Shown in pieces: positions 21,614-36,169 of a DNA stretch of 64,000 nucleotides. This DNA is from Pseudomonas gingeri. GTDB lineage: Bacteria; Pseudomonadota; Gammaproteobacteria; Pseudomonadales; Pseudomonadaceae. The notes below the pieces were generated by a model. It was not told the origin of the DNA. It saw only the letters and a program-made list of their open reading frames with translations, and ran no database searches. Made by a program: the position numbers and the translations under genes. Each line of letters opens with the position of its first letter. The stretch's first letter is position 1. The stretch lies in NCBI RefSeq assembly GCF_013385635.1, contig NZ_JACAPR010000013.1, forward strand, positions 1 through 64,000, written 5' to 3'.

Positions 21614-21677
21614 TTCGCGGGCAAGCCCGCTCCCACAACGACCGCGATGTCCCTGTGGAAGCGGGCTTGCCCGCGAA
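21614..21677. repeat. REPIN between HPP gene and nasA promoter
   Basis: Left arm TTCGCGGGCAAGCCCGCTCC and right arm GGAAGCGGGCTTGCCCGC are inverted with a 16-bp spacer. The element ends about 34 bp before the sigma-54 promoter of nasA. Confidence 0.85.
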
Positions 21678-21710: not shown

Positions 21711-21727
21711 TTGGCGCGAGCCTTGCA
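21711..21727 (+). promoter_or_regulatory. Sigma-54 promoter of nasA
   Basis: TTGGCGCG-AGCC-TTGCA matches the sigma-54 consensus TTGGCACG-N4-TTGCW almost perfectly, with GG (21713-21714) and GC (21725-21726) separated by exactly 10 bp. Transcription should begin about 21738, just before the first leader hairpin. NtrC is the expected activator; two GGTGC half-sites lie upstream (21582 and 21601), but no convincing full dyad was seen. Confidence 0.8.
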
Positions 21728-21743
21728 GTCACCGGAACAACCA

Positions 21744-21822
21744 CCGTCAACGCTGACGGCTGATTTCACGACAAAGGCGCCGTGTTGCCCCGTTTCGACG
21801 GAGTGCGACACAGCGCCTTTTT
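21744..21822 (+). promoter_or_regulatory. ANTAR (NasT-type) antitermination leader of nasA
   Basis: Hairpin P1 (21744-21759) is CCGTC, loop AACGCT, GACGG. Hairpin P2 (21767-21784) is CACG-A-C, loop AAAGGC, G-C-CGTG. Both loops are hexanucleotides with A at position 1 and G at position 4, the hallmark of ANTAR-protein targets. The terminator (21773-21822) uses AAAGGCGC, from the P2 loop and 3' side, paired to GCGCCTTT and followed by T-rich sequence, so P2 and terminator exclude each other. Nitrate-released NasT should bind P1/P2 and allow read-through into nasA. Confidence 0.82.
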
Positions 21823-21849: not shown

Positions 21850-24800
21850 ATGACCCATACCACCGTGCGCAGCGTGTGTCCTTATTGCGGTGTCGGCTGC
21901 GGCATCGTCATGGAGGTCCGCGACAATCAGGTGATCAAGGTCAGCGGCGACAAGCAACACCCGACCAACTTCGGGCGTCTCTGCACCAAAGGCAGCACCT
22001 GCGCCCAGCCGCTGAACCATTCCGGGCGGATGGCGCAGGCCTTTGTCCGCCATGAGCGCAAACGCGATCCGGGCCAGGTGGGCATGGACCAGGCCATCAG
22101 TGAAACCGCCCGCCGCCTCAAGGCCATCCTCGAGGAGCACGGCCCCGATGCATTGTCCTTTTATGTCTCCGGGCAGATGTCCCTGGAAGCCCAGTACCTG
22201 GCCAACAAGCTGGCCAAGGGCTTTGTCCGCACCAATATGATCGAGTCCAACTCGCGCCTGTGCATGGCCAGCGCCGGAGCCGGCTACAAGCTGTCGCTGG
22301 GCGCCGATGGGCCGCCGGGCTCCTACCAGGATTTCGACAAGGCCAATCTGTTCTTTGTCATCGGTGCGAACATGGCCGATTGTCATCCGATCCTGTTCCT
22401 GCGCCTGATGGATCGCCTCAAGTCCGGGGCCCGCCTGATCGTCGTCGACCCACGGCGCAACGCTACCGCCGACAAGGCCGACCTGTTCCTGCAGATCAAG
22501 CCGGGCAGCGACCTCGCCTTGCTCAATGGTCTGCTGCACCTGCTGCTGAAAAACGGTCATACCGACCCGCAATTCATCGCCGCCTTTACCGAGGGCTGGG
22601 AAGCGCTCCCGGCGTTTCTCGAAGACTACAGCCCGGATCGGGTCGCGACACTGACCGGCCTGCCCGAGGCACAGATCCGCCAGGCGGCGCAGTGGATCGG
22701 CGAAGCCGCCGAGTGGATGAGTTGCTGGACCATGGGCCTGAACCAGAGCACCCATGGCACCTGGCACACCAATGCGTTGTGCAACCTGCACCTGGCCACC
22801 GGGGCGATCTGCCGTCCGGGCAGCGGTCCGTTCTCCCTCACCGGCCAACCGAATGCCATGGGCGGTCGGGAAATGGGCTACATGGGCCCCGGGCTGCCCG
22901 GCCAGCGTTCAGCCCTGGTCGCCGCCGACCGCGACTTTATCGAAGACCTCTGGCAAATCCCCCGTGGCAGCCTGAGCCAGACGGTGGGCGGCGGCAGTGT
23001 CGCGCTGTTCGAGGACATGCAGGCCGGCAAGGTCAAGGCCTGCTGGATCATCTGCACCAACCCGGTGGCCTCGCTGCCCAATCGGCAGAAGGTGATTGCC
23101 GGGCTCCAGGCCGCCGAACTGGTGATTGCCCAGGACGCCTTTCTCGACACCGAAACCAACGGTTATGCCGATATCCTGCTGCCGGCGGCGCTATGGGCCG
23201 AGGCCCAGGGCGTGATGATCAACTCCGAACGCAACCTGACCCTGATGCGCAAGGCCGTCGATGCGCCGGGCCAGGCCCTGCCCGATTGGCAGATCATCGC
23301 CCGGGTAGCCTGCGAAATGGGCTATGCCGAAGCGTTCAGCTATGCCAGCGCCGCCGAGGTGTTCGAGGAAATCAAGCGGGCCTGGAACCCGAAGACCGGC
23401 TACGACCTGCGGGGTGTCAGCTACGAGCGCCTGGAACAGACGCCGTTGCAGTGGCCCTGTGGCCCGGGTCAACTGCATGACCGCAACCCGATCCGCTACC
23501 TCAATGACGGCCTGGGCAAAGCCCGCCAACCGGCGGCCGACGGCAGTTACCCGCGCCTGCTGTTCCCCACGGCGAGCGGCAGGGCGATGTTTTTCGCCCG
23601 GCCCTGGCAGCCGGCGGCCGATCAACCCGGCGACCGCTTCCCGATGGTGCTCAATACCGGGCGCTTGCAGCACCAGTGGCACACCCTGACCAAGACCGGC
23701 AAGGTCGCCACCCTGAACAAGCTCAATCCCGGCCCTTTTGTCGAGATCAATCCGCTCGATGCGGCGCGTCTGGGGATCGCCGAAAAGGACCGCGTCGAAG
23801 TCCGTTCGGCCCGGGGCCGGGCGGTATTGCCGGCACAGATCAGCGAGCGGGTATTGCCCGGCAACTGCTTCGCGCCCTTCCATTGGAATGATGTGTACGG
23901 CGAAGACCTGGCGATCAATGCGGTCACCGGCGATGCCGTCGACCCGATTTCCCTGCAACCGGAATTCAAGTTCAGCGCCGTGACCCTGAGTCGGGTCGAG
24001 ACACCTACGCCCGATCCCCTGCCCTTGCCCACGCGCACGGAGGCCCCGCACACGATGCAGACCCAAGCCCTGGCCCAGATCCTCGGGCTCGACACGCCAC
24101 CCAGTATTCAACTGGCCCCTAGCGAGAACCTCTACCTGCAGGGTTTCCTGCTTGGTTTGCGCAGCAGCCAGGCCGTGGCGGGCGTGCCGGCGCTACCGGC
24201 CAACGCGCCACTGCAGCCCGCCAACCGGTTGATCCTCGAAGGCATCCTCGCCGGGCTGTTCGCCCGTCATGACGACAGCACTATGCAGCCAGCACCCAGT
24301 CGAGCGTCACAAGCCGAAGAACCGCCGTTGCTGCTGCTCTGGTCGTCCCAGACCGGCACGGTCGAAGCCTTCGCCAAGTCGGCTGCCGAACACCTGACAG
24401 AGAAAGGCCATCGGGTCCGGCTGGTGTCGATGGACAGCATCCAGGCCCAGGAACTGAGCCAGGCCGGTCGTGCGTTGCTGCTGACCAGCACCTTCGGCGA
24501 CGGCGACCCGCCGGACAATGCCAATAGTTTCTGGCAGGCATTGGCGGCGGACAATGCGCCCAGCCTGGCGAACCTGCGCTTTGCCGTGCTGGCCTTCGGC
24601 GATTCCAGTTATGACCAGTTCTGCGGCTTCGGTCGCAAACTCGATGAGCGCCTGCACAGCCTCGGGGCGCAGCGTCTGGCGCCGCGGGTCGATTGTGAAC
24701 CGGATTACCAGGAGCCGGCCGGCGCCTGGCTGGAAAAGCTCGACTCGGCGCTGTCCGAAAAGCCCGCTGCGGTTACCGGCAAGCCTCGCTACAGTCGCCA

Positions 24801-25905
24801 GCAGCCCTTGGCGGCGCGCCTGAAGCACAACTTTCTGCTCAGCGGCCCCGAAGCCGGCAAGGAGACCCGTCAGTTCGTCTTCGACCTGGGCGACAGCGGC
24901 CTCGACTATCAGGCCGGTGATGCCCTGGGGGTCTGGCCCAGCCACTGCCCGCGGCAGGTGGAACAATTGATGACCTGCCTGGCGGCGCAGGCCGATGCCG
25001 TGGTCACGATCAAGGACCAGACCCCGATGCCACTGGCCGAAGTCCTCAGCCGCCACCTGGAAACCGCGCGGATCAGCCCGGCACTGCTGCAACTGGTATT
25101 CCAGCGCTCCGGCAGTACACAGCTCAAGCGCCTGCTGGCCGATGAGCACAAGACCGAACTCAAGGACTGGCTCTGGGGCCGGCAACCGGCGGACCTGCTG
25201 CGGGAGCTGCAGGTCGATCTCAGTCCGCAGGAGCTGGTGGATTGCCTGAAGCCGCTGCAACCCAGGCTGTATTCCATTTCATCGAGCCCCAAGGTGCACC
25301 CCGGCGAGGTCCATCTGACGGTCTCCACCGTGCGTTACGAACACGCCGGACAGCCGCGCTCCGGCAGTTGCTCGGGTTTTCTCGCCGACCGCGCCGAAGG
25401 CCTGCAAGTGCCGATCTTCGTGCAGAAGTCGGCGAACTTCCGCCCGCCGGCCGATCCCCGCGCGCCGATGATCATGGTCGGGCCGGGCACCGGCGTGGCA
25501 CCGTTCCGCGCTTTTCTGCAGGAACGCCAGGCTATCGGTGCCACGGGCAAGAACTGGCTGTTCTTCGGTGAGCAGCATGCCACCAGCGACTTCTATTACC
25601 GACAAGAGCTGCAAGCGTGGTGTGAACAAGGCCACCTGCACCGGCTCGATACCGCGTTCTCCCGGGACCAGGCACAGAAGATCTACGTGCAGCAGCGCAT
25701 GATCGAACAAGGCGCGCAGCTCTGGGCCTGGTTGGAGGAAGGCGCCGGCTTTTATGTCTGCGGCGATGCCAGCCGCATGGCACGGGATGTCGACGCGGCG
25801 CTCAAGCAGGTGGTGCGCACCCATGGTGGGCTGGATGCCGATGAGGCCGTGGCCTATGTCACTGCCCTGGCGGCGGACAAGCGTTATGTGCGGGATGTCT
25901 ATTGA
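21850..25905 (+). CDS. nasA: Assimilatory nitrate reductase fused to NADPH flavoprotein reductase
   Basis: 1351-residue cytoplasmic fusion. Residues 1-690 are a molybdopterin-guanine-dinucleotide oxidoreductase of NasA/NapA type with a [4Fe-4S] site (Cys10, 13, 17 and 45). A linker follows, then a flavodoxin-like FMN domain (from about 826; [13 protein letters not shown]), an FAD domain (from about 990; [15 protein letters not shown]) and an NADPH domain ([18 protein letters not shown]), as in sulfite reductase alpha subunit CysJ or cytochrome P450 reductase. One polypeptide can thus pass electrons NADPH-FAD-FMN-[4Fe-4S]-Mo to reduce nitrate to nitrite. It is preceded by a sigma-54 promoter and NasT leader. 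The fusion is known in pseudomonads but unlike the separate NasA/NasC of enterobacteria. Confidence 0.93.
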
Positions 25906-25951
25906 ATGCTCGCTCGCGTTGAAACTGAATGTTGTGTACGACTCCAACCCT

Positions 25952-25974
25952 GTGGGAGCGGGCTTGCCCGCGAA
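25952..25974 (+). repeat. Single REP element
   Basis: GTGGGAGCGGGCTTGCCCGC followed by GAA, 46 bp after the nasA stop. Found in the nasA-nirB gap upstream of the nirB promoter. Confidence 0.8.
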
Positions 25975-26018
25975 AACGGCCGCAAGGACGCCCCATAACT
26001 GGTGACCCGAGCTAAATA

Positions 26019-26104
26019 CGCACCAACAAGGTTCACTTTTCAATCCGAGCCCGGCGCCGCTACTGAAATAACCCACCAAACCGGCACTTGGCACGCTCCC
26101 TGCT
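26019..26104 (+). promoter_or_regulatory. NtrC-like site and sigma-54 promoter of nirBD
   Basis: TTGGCACG-CTCC-CTGCT (26088-26104) carries GG (26090-26091) and GC (26102-26103) exactly 10 bp apart, a near-perfect sigma-54 promoter, with a start site expected near 26114. CGCACC-AACAA-GGTTCA (26019-26035) matches the NtrC dyad TGCACC-N5-GGTGCA at ten of twelve positions and lies about 80-95 bp upstream of the start site, a usual enhancer distance. Confidence 0.78.
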
Positions 26105-26119
26105 TTTATCCCGTTACTC

Positions 26120-26231
26120 TCTGCCATGAATGACCAGGCAGACCGTTCAGGTGGTCAACGGCGATCACTCACAGAACAGGAAACAACACCAGGCAAAGGC
26201 GCCTGGAGCTTCGGCTCCAGGCGTTTTTTTT
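26120..26231 (+). promoter_or_regulatory. ANTAR (NasT-type) antitermination leader of nirBD
   Basis: P1 (26120-26142): TCTGCC-A-TG, hexaloop AATGAC, CA-GGCAGA. P2 (26189-26206): CCAGGC, hexaloop AAAGGC, GCCTGG. Both loops have A1 and G4. The terminator (26201-26231) is GCCTGGAGC-TTCG-GCTCCAGGC then G and eight T. Its 5' arm reuses the 3' strand of P2, so the two structures are mutually exclusive, which is the ANTAR mechanism. P1 begins only a few bases after the predicted sigma-54 start site. The P2 loop is identical to that of the nasA leader. Confidence 0.9.
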
Positions 26232-26282
26232 GCATTTTTTTTGCTGGGCCAGCCGTGATTGGCCGTGATCCGAGGAACCTCC

Positions 26283-28841
26283 ATGAACGCTATCGTGAAT
26301 GTCGAACGCCGCAAGAAACTGGTGATCGTTGGCAATGGCATGGTCGGGCATCACTGTGTCGAACAACTGATCGAACGCGGTGCCCTGCTGCACTTCGAAC
26401 TGCATGTCTACGGCGAGGAATGGCAAGCGGCGTATGACCGCGTGCATCTCTCCGAATACTTTGCCGGCAAGGACGCCCATGCCCTCGCCCTCGGCGAACC
26501 GGGGTTGTACGAGCGCCACGGGGTCAACCTGCACCTGGGCGCCGAGGTCCTGGAAATCGACCGCGAACACCGGGAGATTGTCACCCGCTCCGGACGCCAG
26601 GCCTACGACCAACTGATTCTCGCCACCGGCTCCTACCCCTTCGTACCGCCGATTCCCGGTTCCGAAGGTTCGGCCCGCCTGGTCTACCGGACCCTCGACG
26701 ATCTCGACGCGATCCGCGAGGCGGCCAGCGATGCCCGCCGTGGCGTGGTGGTCGGTGGCGGCCTGCTCGGGCTGGAGGCGGCCAACGCCCTCAAGTCCCT
26801 CGGCCTCGAAGCCCACGTGGTGGAGTTCGCTCCACGGCTGATGCCGGTGCAGTTGGACCATGATGGCGGCGCCGCGCTCAAGGCCCGCATCGAAAGCCTT
26901 GGCGTCGGTGTCCATCTGTCCCGCGCAACCCAGGAAATCGTTGCTGGCGAGGACTATCGCTATCGGATGAATTTTGACGGCGGCGAATTTCTTGAAACCG
27001 ACCTGATCGTGTTCTCAGCGGGGATTCGCCCGCAGGACCTGCTGGGACGCAACAGCGGCCTGGAGATCGCACCACGGGGCGGTATCGTCGTCGACTCGCA
27101 CTGCCAGACCAGCGACCCGGCCATCTCGGCCATCGGCGAATGCGCCTCGTGGAACGGCAGCGTCTTCGGTCTCGTGGCGCCGGGCTACAGCATGGCGCGC
27201 AATGTCGCGGCACGCCTTGCCGGGGCAACCTTCGACAGCTTCAACGGCGCCGACATGTCGACCAAGCTCAAGCTGCTCGGTGTCGACGTCGGCTCCATCG
27301 GCGATGCCCACGGCGCCACCCCCGGTGCGCGCAGCTATCGCTTTATCGATGAGGCCAATGCCAGTTACCGGCGCCTGGTGGTCGATGCCGAAGGCAAGAA
27401 AGTCATCGGCGCGGTGCTGGTGGGTGACAACAGCTACTACGATACCCTGCTGCAATACGTGCAGAACGCCATTGCCCTGCCCCAGGATCCGGCCGGCCTG
27501 ATCCTGCCCCAGGGCGAGGGCGTACCGGCCCTGGGCGCCGATGCGTTGCCCGAGACCGCGACCATCTGCTCCTGCCACAACGTCACCAAGGGCGCGATCT
27601 GCTGCGCGATCGATGCCGGTTGCGGCGATCTCTCGACGCTCAAGGCACAGACCAAGGCAGCTACCGGCTGCGGCGGTTGCAGCGCCTTGCTCAAGCAGGT
27701 CTTCGAACATGAGTTGATCGCCCGTGGCGTGGCCGTGGACAAGAGCCTCTGCGAACACTTCGCCTACACCCGCCAGGAACTCTACGCGCTGGTGCGGGTG
27801 GGCCGGATCGAAACCTTCGAAGCCCTGCTCGAACAGCATGGCAAGGGCCATACCGGCTGCGATATCTGCAAGCCGGCGGTGGGCTCGATCCTCGCGTCCT
27901 GCTGGAATCGGCCGATCATGGACAAGTCATTGGTGCCGCTACAGGACACCAACGACACCTTCATGGCCAATATGCAGAAGAACGGCACCTATTCGATCAT
28001 TCCGCGCATCGCCGCCGGCGAAATCACCCCGGACAAGCTGATCGCCCTCGGTGCCGTGGCGAAGAAATACGACCTCTATACCAAGATCACCGGCGGCCAG
28101 CGCATCGATCTGTTCGGCGCCCAACTGCATGAACTACCGCAGATCTGGGGCGAGCTGATCGACGCCGGTTTCGAGACCGGGCACGGCTACGGCAAATCCC
28201 TGCGCACGGTGAAATCCTGCGTCGGCAGCACCTGGTGTCGCTACGGCGTGCAGGACAGCGTGGCCATGGCCCTGCTTCTGGAGAATCGCTACAAGGGCCT
28301 GCGCGCGCCGCACAAGTTCAAGCTGGCGGTGTCCGGCTGCACCCGCGAATGCGCCGAAGCACAGAGCAAGGACATTGGCGTGATCGCCACCGAGAAAGGC
28401 TGGAACCTGTATGTCTGCGGTAACGGCGGCATGCGCCCGCGCCATGCCGAGCTGTTCGCCACCGACCTCGATGACGAGACCCTGATCCGCTACGTCGACC
28501 GCTTCCTGATGTTCTACATCCGCACCGCCGACCGCCTGCAACGCACCTCGGTCTGGCGCGAAAACCTGGAAGGCGGCCTCGATTTCCTCAAGGCGGTGAT
28601 CATCGACGACAGCCTGGGCCTGGCCGCGGAACTGGAAAGTCAGTTGCAGCTGGTGGTCGATCGCTACGAATGCGAGTGGGCCAACGCGGTCAGCGACCCG
28701 GAAAAACTCAAGCGCTTCCGCACCTTCGTCAACGACCAGCGCAGCGATCCGGACATTCAGTTCGTCAAGGAACGCGAGCAGCGCCGGCCGGTGCGCGCAC
28801 ACGAACTCAACCTGATTCCCGCTCACGAGGAGGTGGTCTGA
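26283..28841 (+). CDS. nirB: Assimilatory nitrite reductase large subunit
   Basis: 852-residue cytoplasmic siroheme enzyme reducing nitrite to ammonium with NAD(P)H. N-terminal FAD/NAD domain (KLVIVGNGMVGHHCVEQL; GVVVGGGLLGLEAANALK); a BFD-type [2Fe-2S] domain with CSCHNVTKGA and CGGCSALLKQ and a second repeat ending GCDICKPAVGS; then the nitrite/sulfite reductase domain with SCVGSTWCRYG and SGCTRECAEA, whose cysteines bind the coupled [4Fe-4S]-siroheme. Start at 26283 follows GAGG. nirD begins within the stop codon (TGATG). Controlled by the sigma-54 promoter and NasT-type leader just upstream, and possibly also by read-through from nasA. Confidence 0.96.
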   Translation: MNAIVNVERRKKLVIVGNGMVGHHCVEQLIERGALLHFELHVYGEEWQAAYDRVHLSEYFAGKDAHALALGEPGLYERHGVNLHLGAEVLEIDREHREIVTRSGRQAYDQLILATGSYPFVPPIPGSEGSARLVYRTLDDLDAIREAASDARRGVVVGGGLLGLEAANALKSLGLEAHVVEFAPRLMPVQLDHDGGAALKARIESLGVGVHLSRATQEIVAGEDYRYRMNFDGGEFLETDLIVFSAGIRPQDLLGRNSGLEIAPRGGIVVDSHCQTSDPAISAIGECASWNGSVFGLVAPGYSMARNVAARLAGATFDSFNGADMSTKLKLLGVDVGSIGDAHGATPGARSYRFIDEANASYRRLVVDAEGKKVIGAVLVGDNSYYDTLLQYVQNAIALPQDPAGLILPQGEGVPALGADALPETATICSCHNVTKGAICCAIDAGCGDLSTLKAQTKAATGCGGCSALLKQVFEHELIARGVAVDKSLCEHFAYTRQELYALVRVGRIETFEALLEQHGKGHTGCDICKPAVGSILASCWNRPIMDKSLVPLQDTNDTFMANMQKNGTYSIIPRIAAGEITPDKLIALGAVAKKYDLYTKITGGQRIDLFGAQLHELPQIWGELIDAGFETGHGYGKSLRTVKSCVGSTWCRYGVQDSVAMALLLENRYKGLRAPHKFKLAVSGCTRECAEAQSKDIGVIATEKGWNLYVCGNGGMRPRHAELFATDLDDETLIRYVDRFLMFYIRTADRLQRTSVWRENLEGGLDFLKAVIIDDSLGLAAELESQLQLVVDRYECEWANAVSDPEKLKRFRTFVNDQRSDPDIQFVKEREQRRPVRAHELNLIPAHEEVV

Positions 28842-29215
28842 TGGGCCAGCCGACAACACAACACAGCTTTGCCAACGACTTCCAGTGGCAGGCGGTCTGC
28901 CGTCGCGAGGACCTGGTGGAAAACTCCGGCGTGGTGGTCTGGTTCCACTGTGCCCAGGTAGCCCTGTTCTATCTGCCCGATGAAGCGCAGGGCCGGACCC
29001 TGTATGCCATCGACAACCGCGATCCGTTGTCCGGGGCGAATGTGATCGGTCGCGGCATCGTCGGCAATATCAAGGGGCAGCCGGTAATCGCCTCGCCGTT
29101 ATACAAGCAGCACTTCAGCCTGGAGGATGGTATGTGCCTGGAGTACCCGGAACAACGGCTACGGGTATGGCCGGTACGCTGGGTCGGCGATGCGGTGGAG
29201 ATCGCGGTGGTCTGA
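28841..29215 (+). CDS. nirD: Nitrite reductase small subunit
   Basis: 124-residue Rieske-like domain protein of the NirD family, partner of NirB in NAD(P)H-dependent nitrite reduction. It starts in a TGATG junction with nirB, so translation is coupled. Like other NirD proteins it lacks the Rieske CxH/CxxH iron ligands. The C-terminal SPLYKQHFSLEDGMCLEYPE is typical of the family. It ends 21 bp before the convergent chlD stop. Confidence 0.93.
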   Translation: MGQPTTQHSFANDFQWQAVCRREDLVENSGVVVWFHCAQVALFYLPDEAQGRTLYAIDNRDPLSGANVIGRGIVGNIKGQPVIASPLYKQHFSLEDGMCLEYPEQRLRVWPVRWVGDAVEIAVV

Positions 29216-35776: not shown

Positions 35777-35884
35777 CGGATGCCCTTTGGCAAAAGTAGC
35801 GGGCATACGGGACGAAAGCCGCCGCCCTGGGGGCACGGAAAGGTTCGCCACCGGATCACCCCGCCCGGTTGTAGTGAGAATCTG

Positions 35885-36075
35885 TCACGAGGCAGGTCTC
35901 CTGGCTTGCGGTCGGGTGTCCGGAATCTTCCGTTCACCTTGTCTCGCGCCTTCCCGCCCAAGGGCAGTGGCCGTGCAAGACTGTCAAACCGCTCACAGTT
36001 GCGGGGGCAGCCGCGGCATACCGCGTTCCCTTCTTAGCTTCGGCCGGATACCGAAGAACCTCGAACCTGCAAGGC
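35885..36075 (-). promoter_or_regulatory. Cobalamin (adenosylcobalamin) riboswitch
   Basis: On the minus strand the conserved B12 box reads AGCCAGGAGACCTGCC (35891-35906). Upstream are the core segments GGGAACGCGGTATGCCGCGG, CCCCGCAACTGTGAGCGG and GGCCACTGCCC in the order found in cobalamin aptamers. It precedes cobW and should shut down cobW-cobN-chlI-chlD when B12 is plentiful, probably at translation since no terminator T-run is visible before cobW. The limits given are approximate. Confidence 0.92.
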
Positions 36076-36169
36076 TACGCAGTGCATCGGAACAGGTCAA
36101 TCTCGGCGGCCGCTGTGGTTTAATTGCGCCCCCTTCTCCTGCCCTGCCCGCTTCAAGGAAATGCTGCCC

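Follow-up and report, generated by a model that had tools for sequence, protein, structure and literature searches.

Our results support a model in which positions 26120-26231 of the window, the 64,000-nt stretch of Pseudomonas gingeri DNA analyzed here, very probably act as a nitrate- or nitrite-responsive antitermination leader of the NalA/NasT kind, a reading made from sequence. Between the end of a nasA-type gene at 25905 and the ATG of nirB at 26283 lie three hairpins whose hexaloops carry A at position 1 and G at position 4 (A1/G4), followed by a terminator. An earlier note on this DNA had proposed a NasT-type ANTAR antitermination leader before nirB, and that proposal is now well supported by the anatomy, conservation and covariation of the element and by the presence of NasS-NasT in the genome. 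Its assignment of the two hairpins stands only in part: P2 and the terminator were placed correctly, whereas the AATGAC hairpin is not the conserved P1, and the middle AACGGC hairpin was overlooked. As judged from the sequences of relatives, the conserved pair is AACGGC with AAAGGC, not AATGAC with AAAGGC.

The element lies on the plus strand throughout. A regular-expression scan with the sigma-54 consensus found a sigma-54-type promoter, TTGGCACGCTCCCTGCT, at 26088-26104 (GG at 26090-26091, GC at 26102-26103), from which transcription would start near 26115. The first hairpin, TCTGCC(A)TG-AATGAC-CAGGCAGA, with one bulged A and a G-C closing pair, is specific to one clade and doubtful as an ANTAR site. 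The predicted fold then places an outer helix around P1 (26143-26180), in which GTTC at 26145-26148 pairs with GAAC at 26174-26177, extended by CC at 26143-26144 with GG at 26179-26180. P1 itself, GGTGGTC-AACGGC-GATCACT at 26150-26169, presents the conserved first ANTAR hexaloop (26157-26162), which has A1 and G4 and is closed by C-G. P2, CCAGGC-AAAGGC-GCCTGG (loop 26195-26200, C-G closed), is the antiterminator hairpin, and the intrinsic terminator, CGCCTGGAGC-TTCG-GCTCCAGGCG plus T8, occupies 26200-26231, with its hairpin at 26200-26223 and eight T at 26224-26231. The AATGAC and AAAGGC hairpins with A1 and G4 are thus where the earlier note had seen them (26120-26142 and 26189-26206), and its statement that the 5' arm of the terminator is the 3' strand of the AAAGGC hairpin is confirmed at 26200-26223: GCCTGG at 26201-26206 is common to both arms, making the two folds mutually exclusive. 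Downstream are nirB (26283-28841), encoding an 852-aa nitrite reductase large subunit that scores above cut-off against NCBIfam NF011565 (1246.1 bits) and TIGR02374 (1056.4 bits), and nirD (28841-29215), with a Rieske_2 domain. A small open reading frame also starts at an ATG at 26126.

None of 5000 dinucleotide shuffles of 26115-26224 contained two A1/G4 hexaloops with stems of at least 6 bp, and 44 of 5000 contained at least one such hexaloop. Across both strands of the whole window, AACGGC and AAAGGC form the sole C-G-closed pair of this type separated by 16-60 nt, in a scan that tolerates no bulge and is therefore blind to the AATGAC hairpin. The whole leader, terminator included, folds 5.3 standard deviations below its own shuffles. 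The 34-nt stretch of the middle hairpin reaches -8.0 kcal/mol with a z-score of -0.99, and 31 of 200 shuffles fold equally well; its stability alone is unremarkable, and the case for P1 rests on conservation.

The earlier note had proposed running a covariance model over 26080-26290, and in that interval no Rfam model reached its gathering score. The nirB leader scored 15.9 bits against RF00625 (P11; gathering score 70) and 16.1 bits against RF03032 (narK RNA; gathering score 43.2), and membership in either family was rejected on these scores; P11 had no match in this genome at E <= 0.001. A search for the NtrC site GCACCA-N4-TGGTGC with up to three mismatches gave 40 matches in the window against 52.9 expected, and a two-mismatch match at 25990-26005 was rejected given that the pattern is not above expectation. 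Elsewhere in the window, a cobalamin riboswitch (RF00174, 112.2 bits) lies on the minus strand at 35874-36078.

The comparative evidence comes from 119 genomes of the genus, including our own (G000). With the NirB N-terminus as query, 106 of them gave matches, 71 strong (the window type) and 35 only weak, the weak ones probably being NirB proteins of the type that accompanies P11 leaders. Upstream DNA was read for 70 of the 71 strong-NirB genomes. P2, which was chosen by a GGC/CGC pattern and is C-G closed by construction, is present in all 70 leaders, and a looser sigma-54-like pattern in 69 (a raw count with no chance baseline). P1 occurs in 63 of the 70 under a rule that itself demands A1 and G4 (loop A(A/C)(C/T)G, C-G closing pair, stem of at least 4 bp); in promoter-proximal regions the same rule succeeds in 63 of 69, whereas 200 shuffles, which ignore kinship, gave 0.35 on average and never more than 3. 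Among the seven leaders without a standard P1 (L006, L009, L046, L047, L051, L056 and L062), L006 carries the hexaloop ACCGAC, though no promoter was recognised in it, and L046, L056 and L062 have a hexaloop at the place of P1 with G at position 4 but also G at position 1.

These data bear directly on the alternative that the functional P1 is formed by AATGAC, the middle hairpin being incidental; we regard this as very unlikely. The AATGAC loop has A1 and G4, and its hairpin, at -10.0 kcal/mol (z -3.46), is more stable than the middle one. It is found in only 2 of the 70 fetched nirB leaders, and the conserved hairpin in this set is the middle one. Among 398 genomes of the genus, searched at the DNA level so that diverged copies could escape, full-length leader matches with the AATGAC hairpin occur in four, our own included (G000, G044, G361 and G449), where it occupies an insertion of 23 nt, confined to a single clade, that lies between the promoter and P1. 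The TG...CA pairs that close it recur in the eutP mutant A27U,C28G,G35C,U36A, which is reported to keep pairing but to have disrupted induction (PMC3369931); the single change in the G449 element hits the second of these two pairs. AATGAC was rejected as P1 in view of its conservation and its closing pairs, and a role as a NasT site is improbable. The element of the most distant clade member carries 1 change in 23 positions against 5 in 16 in the neighbouring spacer (Fisher p 0.03, counted by eye and chosen after the fact); since it is better kept than the adjoining spacer, some role, even as a third site, is possible.

Covariation was assessed in 29 short-linker leaders (28 distinct), from relatives that are not independent of each other, against a structure of P1, P2 and outer helix drawn by eye from the same sequences. 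Double-change cells numbered 43 against 14.1 in shuffles, none of 500 shuffles reaching 43, and 87.4% of cells were paired, compared with 24-42% when the structure was slid along the alignment. Pairing reached 92.9% of cells in P1 and 74.1% in the outer helix, where three of the five pairs had double changes; the outer helix can form in all 29 leaders (a raw count with no chance baseline). Two other measures did not stand out among these leaders: 6 pairs had a double change, against 4.5 in shuffles (45 of 500 reaching that value), and there were 17 further pair types, against 15.7 (156 of 500). No double change was seen in P2 among the 29 leaders, as expected if P2 scarcely varies because the same letters must also build the terminator.

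It is highly improbable that the element is a plain terminator between nasA and nirB, or the source of a P11-like trans-acting sRNA, without antitermination. Although the terminator is strong and the related P11 family is filed in Rfam as an sRNA, neither a conserved, covarying P1 nor a P2 that shares an arm with the terminator is necessary for plain termination. In addition, since nirB begins downstream of both the sigma-54-like promoter and the terminator, its expression from this promoter would need read-through.

The earlier note had expected NasS and NasT to be encoded elsewhere, and the pair was located on contig C62, where NasT, with response-regulator and ANTAR domains, adjoins NasS, an NMT1_2 protein. 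The only other ANTAR match in the genome is an AmiR-type protein (C5:160274). That AmiR rather than NasT serves the leader is barely credible: it is encoded in the same genome, but it adjoins a gene that is AmiC-like by eye, whereas the presence of NasT tracks that of NirB. NasT occurs in 102 of the 106 genomes with a NirB-like match and in none of the 13 without. Twelve of those 13 have no ANTAR protein at all, and the remaining one, G051, has two, both AmiR-like by their AmiC-like neighbours (by eye). The four NirB genomes that lack NasT (G001, G018, G043 and G068; loci L126-L129) each have a gene for a protein that combines NIT with ANTAR, the domain pair of NasR. Their leaders all keep P2, and P1 is standard in L013 and L057 but not found by the rule in L009 and L047. 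The exchange of NasT for a NIT-ANTAR protein with the leader kept suggests that the sensor is exchangeable around a conserved RNA target.

With NasT as the partner, the mechanism that we infer would run as follows. RNA polymerase with sigma-54 would start near 26115, switched on presumably by NtrC under nitrogen limitation. When nitrate is lacking, NasS would hold NasT, the 3' arm of P2 would pair into the terminator hairpin at 26200-26223, and transcription would stop at 26224-26231. With nitrate or nitrite present, freed NasT would bind the hexaloops of P1 (AACGGC) and P2 (AAAGGC); NasT-bound P2 would then persist and block the terminator, and RNA polymerase would read into nirBD.

The original NalA papers are reportedly Romeo 2012 and Nie 2024. 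NalA of Pseudomonas aeruginosa and Pseudomonas putida resembles the window leader in its sigma-54 promoter, its NasT-relieved terminator hairpin, the nirBD genes downstream and its use of NasS-NasT. A 2026 review presents NalA as the nirBD leader RNA, with a sigma-54 promoter, NtrC, antitermination by NasT and release from NasS by nitrate, and adds that c-di-GMP inhibits the system (PMC12830290). This mechanism has thus already been described for Pseudomonas nirBD. Binding of NasT to a nasA leader has been demonstrated in Paracoccus (PMC3795266). Also related is the nasF leader of Klebsiella, where NasR mediates nitrate-controlled ANTAR antitermination of a nitrate-assimilation operon; NasR is a one-component NIT-ANTAR sensor, in contrast to NasS-NasT here.

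Two Rfam families have a comparable layout. In all three genomes that could be cross-checked (G028, G083 and G113), that is, those covered by both searches with a P11 match over cut-off, the P11 match sits just ahead of a NirB-like gene; from this location, P11 is probably NalA. The NirB-like genes beside P11 are 40, 34 and 35% identical, respectively, to the window NirB over about 90 N-terminal residues, and in G028 the P11 model also matches a window-type leader at 35.5 bits, under cut-off. P11-type leaders carry AACGNN and AAAGGC hexaloops in all 12 that were read, the 12 best of 36 matches. The window leader differs in its divergent sequence and has no P11-like linker hairpin but a 5' hairpin instead. 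The narK RNA shares the layout, with AACGGC and AAAGAC loops and a sigma-54-like element within the model, although its loops are 23-25 nt apart rather than the 38 nt of the nirB leader.

That spacing is one point against the preferred NalA/NasT reading. In its published description, the eutP leader bound by EutV in Enterococcus faecalis is similar in having two A1/G4 hexaloops, a C-G closing pair and a P2 exclusive with the terminator, but its loops lie 24 nt apart (A29 to A53), compared with 38 nt between P1 and P2 here. The E. faecalis eut linkers measure 5-12 nt, whereas 19 nt separate the full stems of the nirB leader (26170-26188). EutV has little tolerance for linker change: a 20-nt extension is reported to have abolished antitermination in vitro (PMC8934654). 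Formation of the outer helix could compensate, leaving 8 nt (26181-26188) before P2, inside the eut range. The two systems would also differ in their trigger, which is receiver phosphorylation for EutV and would be release from NasS, known for NasT, at the nirB leader.

Linker lengths among the relatives fall into two classes, measured between 5-bp stems: 22-29 nt in 20 of 63 leaders, the window's included, and 38-73 nt in 43 of 63. P2 is preceded at 32-46 nt by a C-G-closed hexaloop in 33 of the 43 long-linker leaders; 31 of the 33 loops carry G at position 4, and all 33 start with either A (21) or G (12). Twelve of the 43 lack a third hexaloop with G4: ten have no C-G-closed hexaloop there and two have A at position 4. 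An earlier form of the rule gave 30 of 43, a figure that includes two CACGAA loops at -25, whereas shuffles averaged 4.0 and peaked at 10; with A1 added it gave 19, whereas shuffles averaged 1.7 and peaked at 6. Related sequences overstate the signal in this control. All 12 of the P11-type leaders read, which were the best of 36 matches, place a CCCG-ANNGAN-CGGG hairpin between P1 and P2, with a stem of 4 bp and a G-C pair closing the loop (a raw count with no shuffle baseline). In the EutV structure, G4 is reported to be the sole contact that is base-specific (PMC8934654).

These extra loops raise the possibility that all three hexaloops of the nirB leader bind NasT, the 5' loop serving as one more recruitment site in the manner of the third linker hexaloop of its relatives. 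This seems to us unlikely, if less so than the other alternatives. It is in keeping with the 31 of 43 long-linker nirB leaders that have a third hexaloop with G4, with the A1/G4 hexaloop of all 12 P11-type leaders read, and with binding data for EutV, for which a single hexaloop is reported to be enough (PMC8934654). In the window, however, the extra loop lies 5' of P1, is closed by G-C and occurs in no more than four of the sampled genomes. Where other leaders have a long 5' region, it mostly folds into hairpins with unrelated loops, although in L022 and L044 an A1/G4 loop, ACAGCC, overlapping P1 can be drawn.

The nirB leader is not alone, as such leaders precede five genes or operons in this genome: nirBD, nasA, nasS-nasT, a NarK-like transporter gene and a chemoreceptor gene. 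The nasA leader (21711-21822, plus strand), absent from the finding of the earlier note, is the second in the window. It has a sigma-54-type promoter found by the regular-expression scan (TTGGCGCGAGCCTTGCA, 21711-21727) and a leader at 21744-21822 comprising P1 (CCGTC-AACGCT-GACGG, 21744-21759), P2 (CACGAC-AAAGGC-GCCGTG, 21767-21784, with one mismatch) and a terminator running to T5 at 21818-21822. RF03032 matches it at 21713-21783 with 38.4 bits, under the gathering score of 43.2. The nasA-type gene that follows (21850-25905, plus strand) encodes 1351 aa with the Pfam domains of a molybdopterin oxidoreductase fused to a CysJ-like flavoprotein reductase; by context it is a nitrate reductase, and none of the 25 listed NCBIfam models reached its cut-off. 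Before the nasA leader, an inverted pair of 29-nt arms, 90% complementary (21614-21677), is presumably REP-like, and a single copy resembling these arms lies near 25950-25980 (by eye).

On C62, narK RNA matches over cut-off lie between nasT and the NarK-like transporter gene (C62:250392-250463, 76.2 bits) and before nasS (C62:252352-252421, 46.4 bits). The transporter scores 308.9 bits against TIGR00886, just under the cut-off of 311.7. By eye, the nasA, nasS and NarK-like leaders all show two hexaloops at a distance of 23-25 nt, together with a terminator and a sigma-54-like element; P1 of the nasS leader has only 3 contiguous pairs. A leader before nasS-nasT (L077, L001, C62) suggests positive feedback on nasS-nasT. 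At E <= 10, RF03032 gave 16 matches in the genome, the nirB leader among them and two over cut-off; of eight further matches viewed, three are described leaders and five (17-24 bits) lack a leader-like layout by eye. The same model also gave matches at E <= 10 in 13 of 14 control genomes, none over cut-off.

R1, a model built from the nirB leaders, gave seven matches in the genome: nirB itself, one on C25, one on the opposite strand over the terminator (C5:26191-26271) and four with E >0.7. The C25 match (C25:50056-50190, minus strand; 24.6 bits, rough E 0.0024) is the chemoreceptor leader, which contains TGGCACAAACGCTGCA, P1 TCGGTC-AACGAG-GATCGA, P2 CAGGC-AACGAA-GCCTG and a terminator. Downstream of it (L141, C25:46500-53500), the gene at C25:48404-50023 encodes a chemoreceptor with 4HB_MCP_1 and MCPsignal domains. 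Orthologs were found at E <= 1e-20 in 25 of the 119 genus genomes, our own included, and seven of these 25, again including our own, have a complete leader within 900 nt upstream, with about 40 to 580 nt between T run and gene. Two more orthologs (L158 and L165) lie behind nirB and nirD in the same orientation, and the nirB leaders there are L022 and L043. The other 16 of 25 have neither a leader upstream nor linkage to nirB-nirD.

It is plausible, though we hold it only tentatively, that NasT antitermination also controls this Pseudomonas chemoreceptor, so that assimilation is coupled to chemotaxis by nitrate sensing, and that the third hexaloop of many nirB leaders, mostly 33-36 nt upstream of P2, is an extra NasT docking step that relaxes the two-hairpin spacing rule of EutV. 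Such a docking step in the linker would explain the long linkers. In P. aeruginosa, nitrate is sensed by the chemoreceptor McpN, a PilJ-domain protein whose transcript nitrate is reported to lower (PMC6381276); this response is the opposite of the expected NasT effect. In P. putida, the chemoreceptor gene PP_0779 is up under nitrogen limitation, with no regulator assigned in that source (PMC7801951). Among the titles and abstract openings listed, which give weak evidence of novelty, there was no report of a link between NasT or ANTAR proteins and chemoreceptors, of three-hexaloop ANTAR leaders, of P11 with nirB, or of narK or P11 RNA as ANTAR targets.

In summary, the window leader is a clean example of a known switch, and our analysis corrects the identity of its P1. 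The wider value of the finding is comparative, in that leaders stand before five genes or operons, including nasS-nasT and a chemoreceptor gene. A test set for the passage of ANTAR proteins from the first hairpin to the second is provided by the natural leaders, which differ in having two or three hexaloops and linkers of 22-73 nt.
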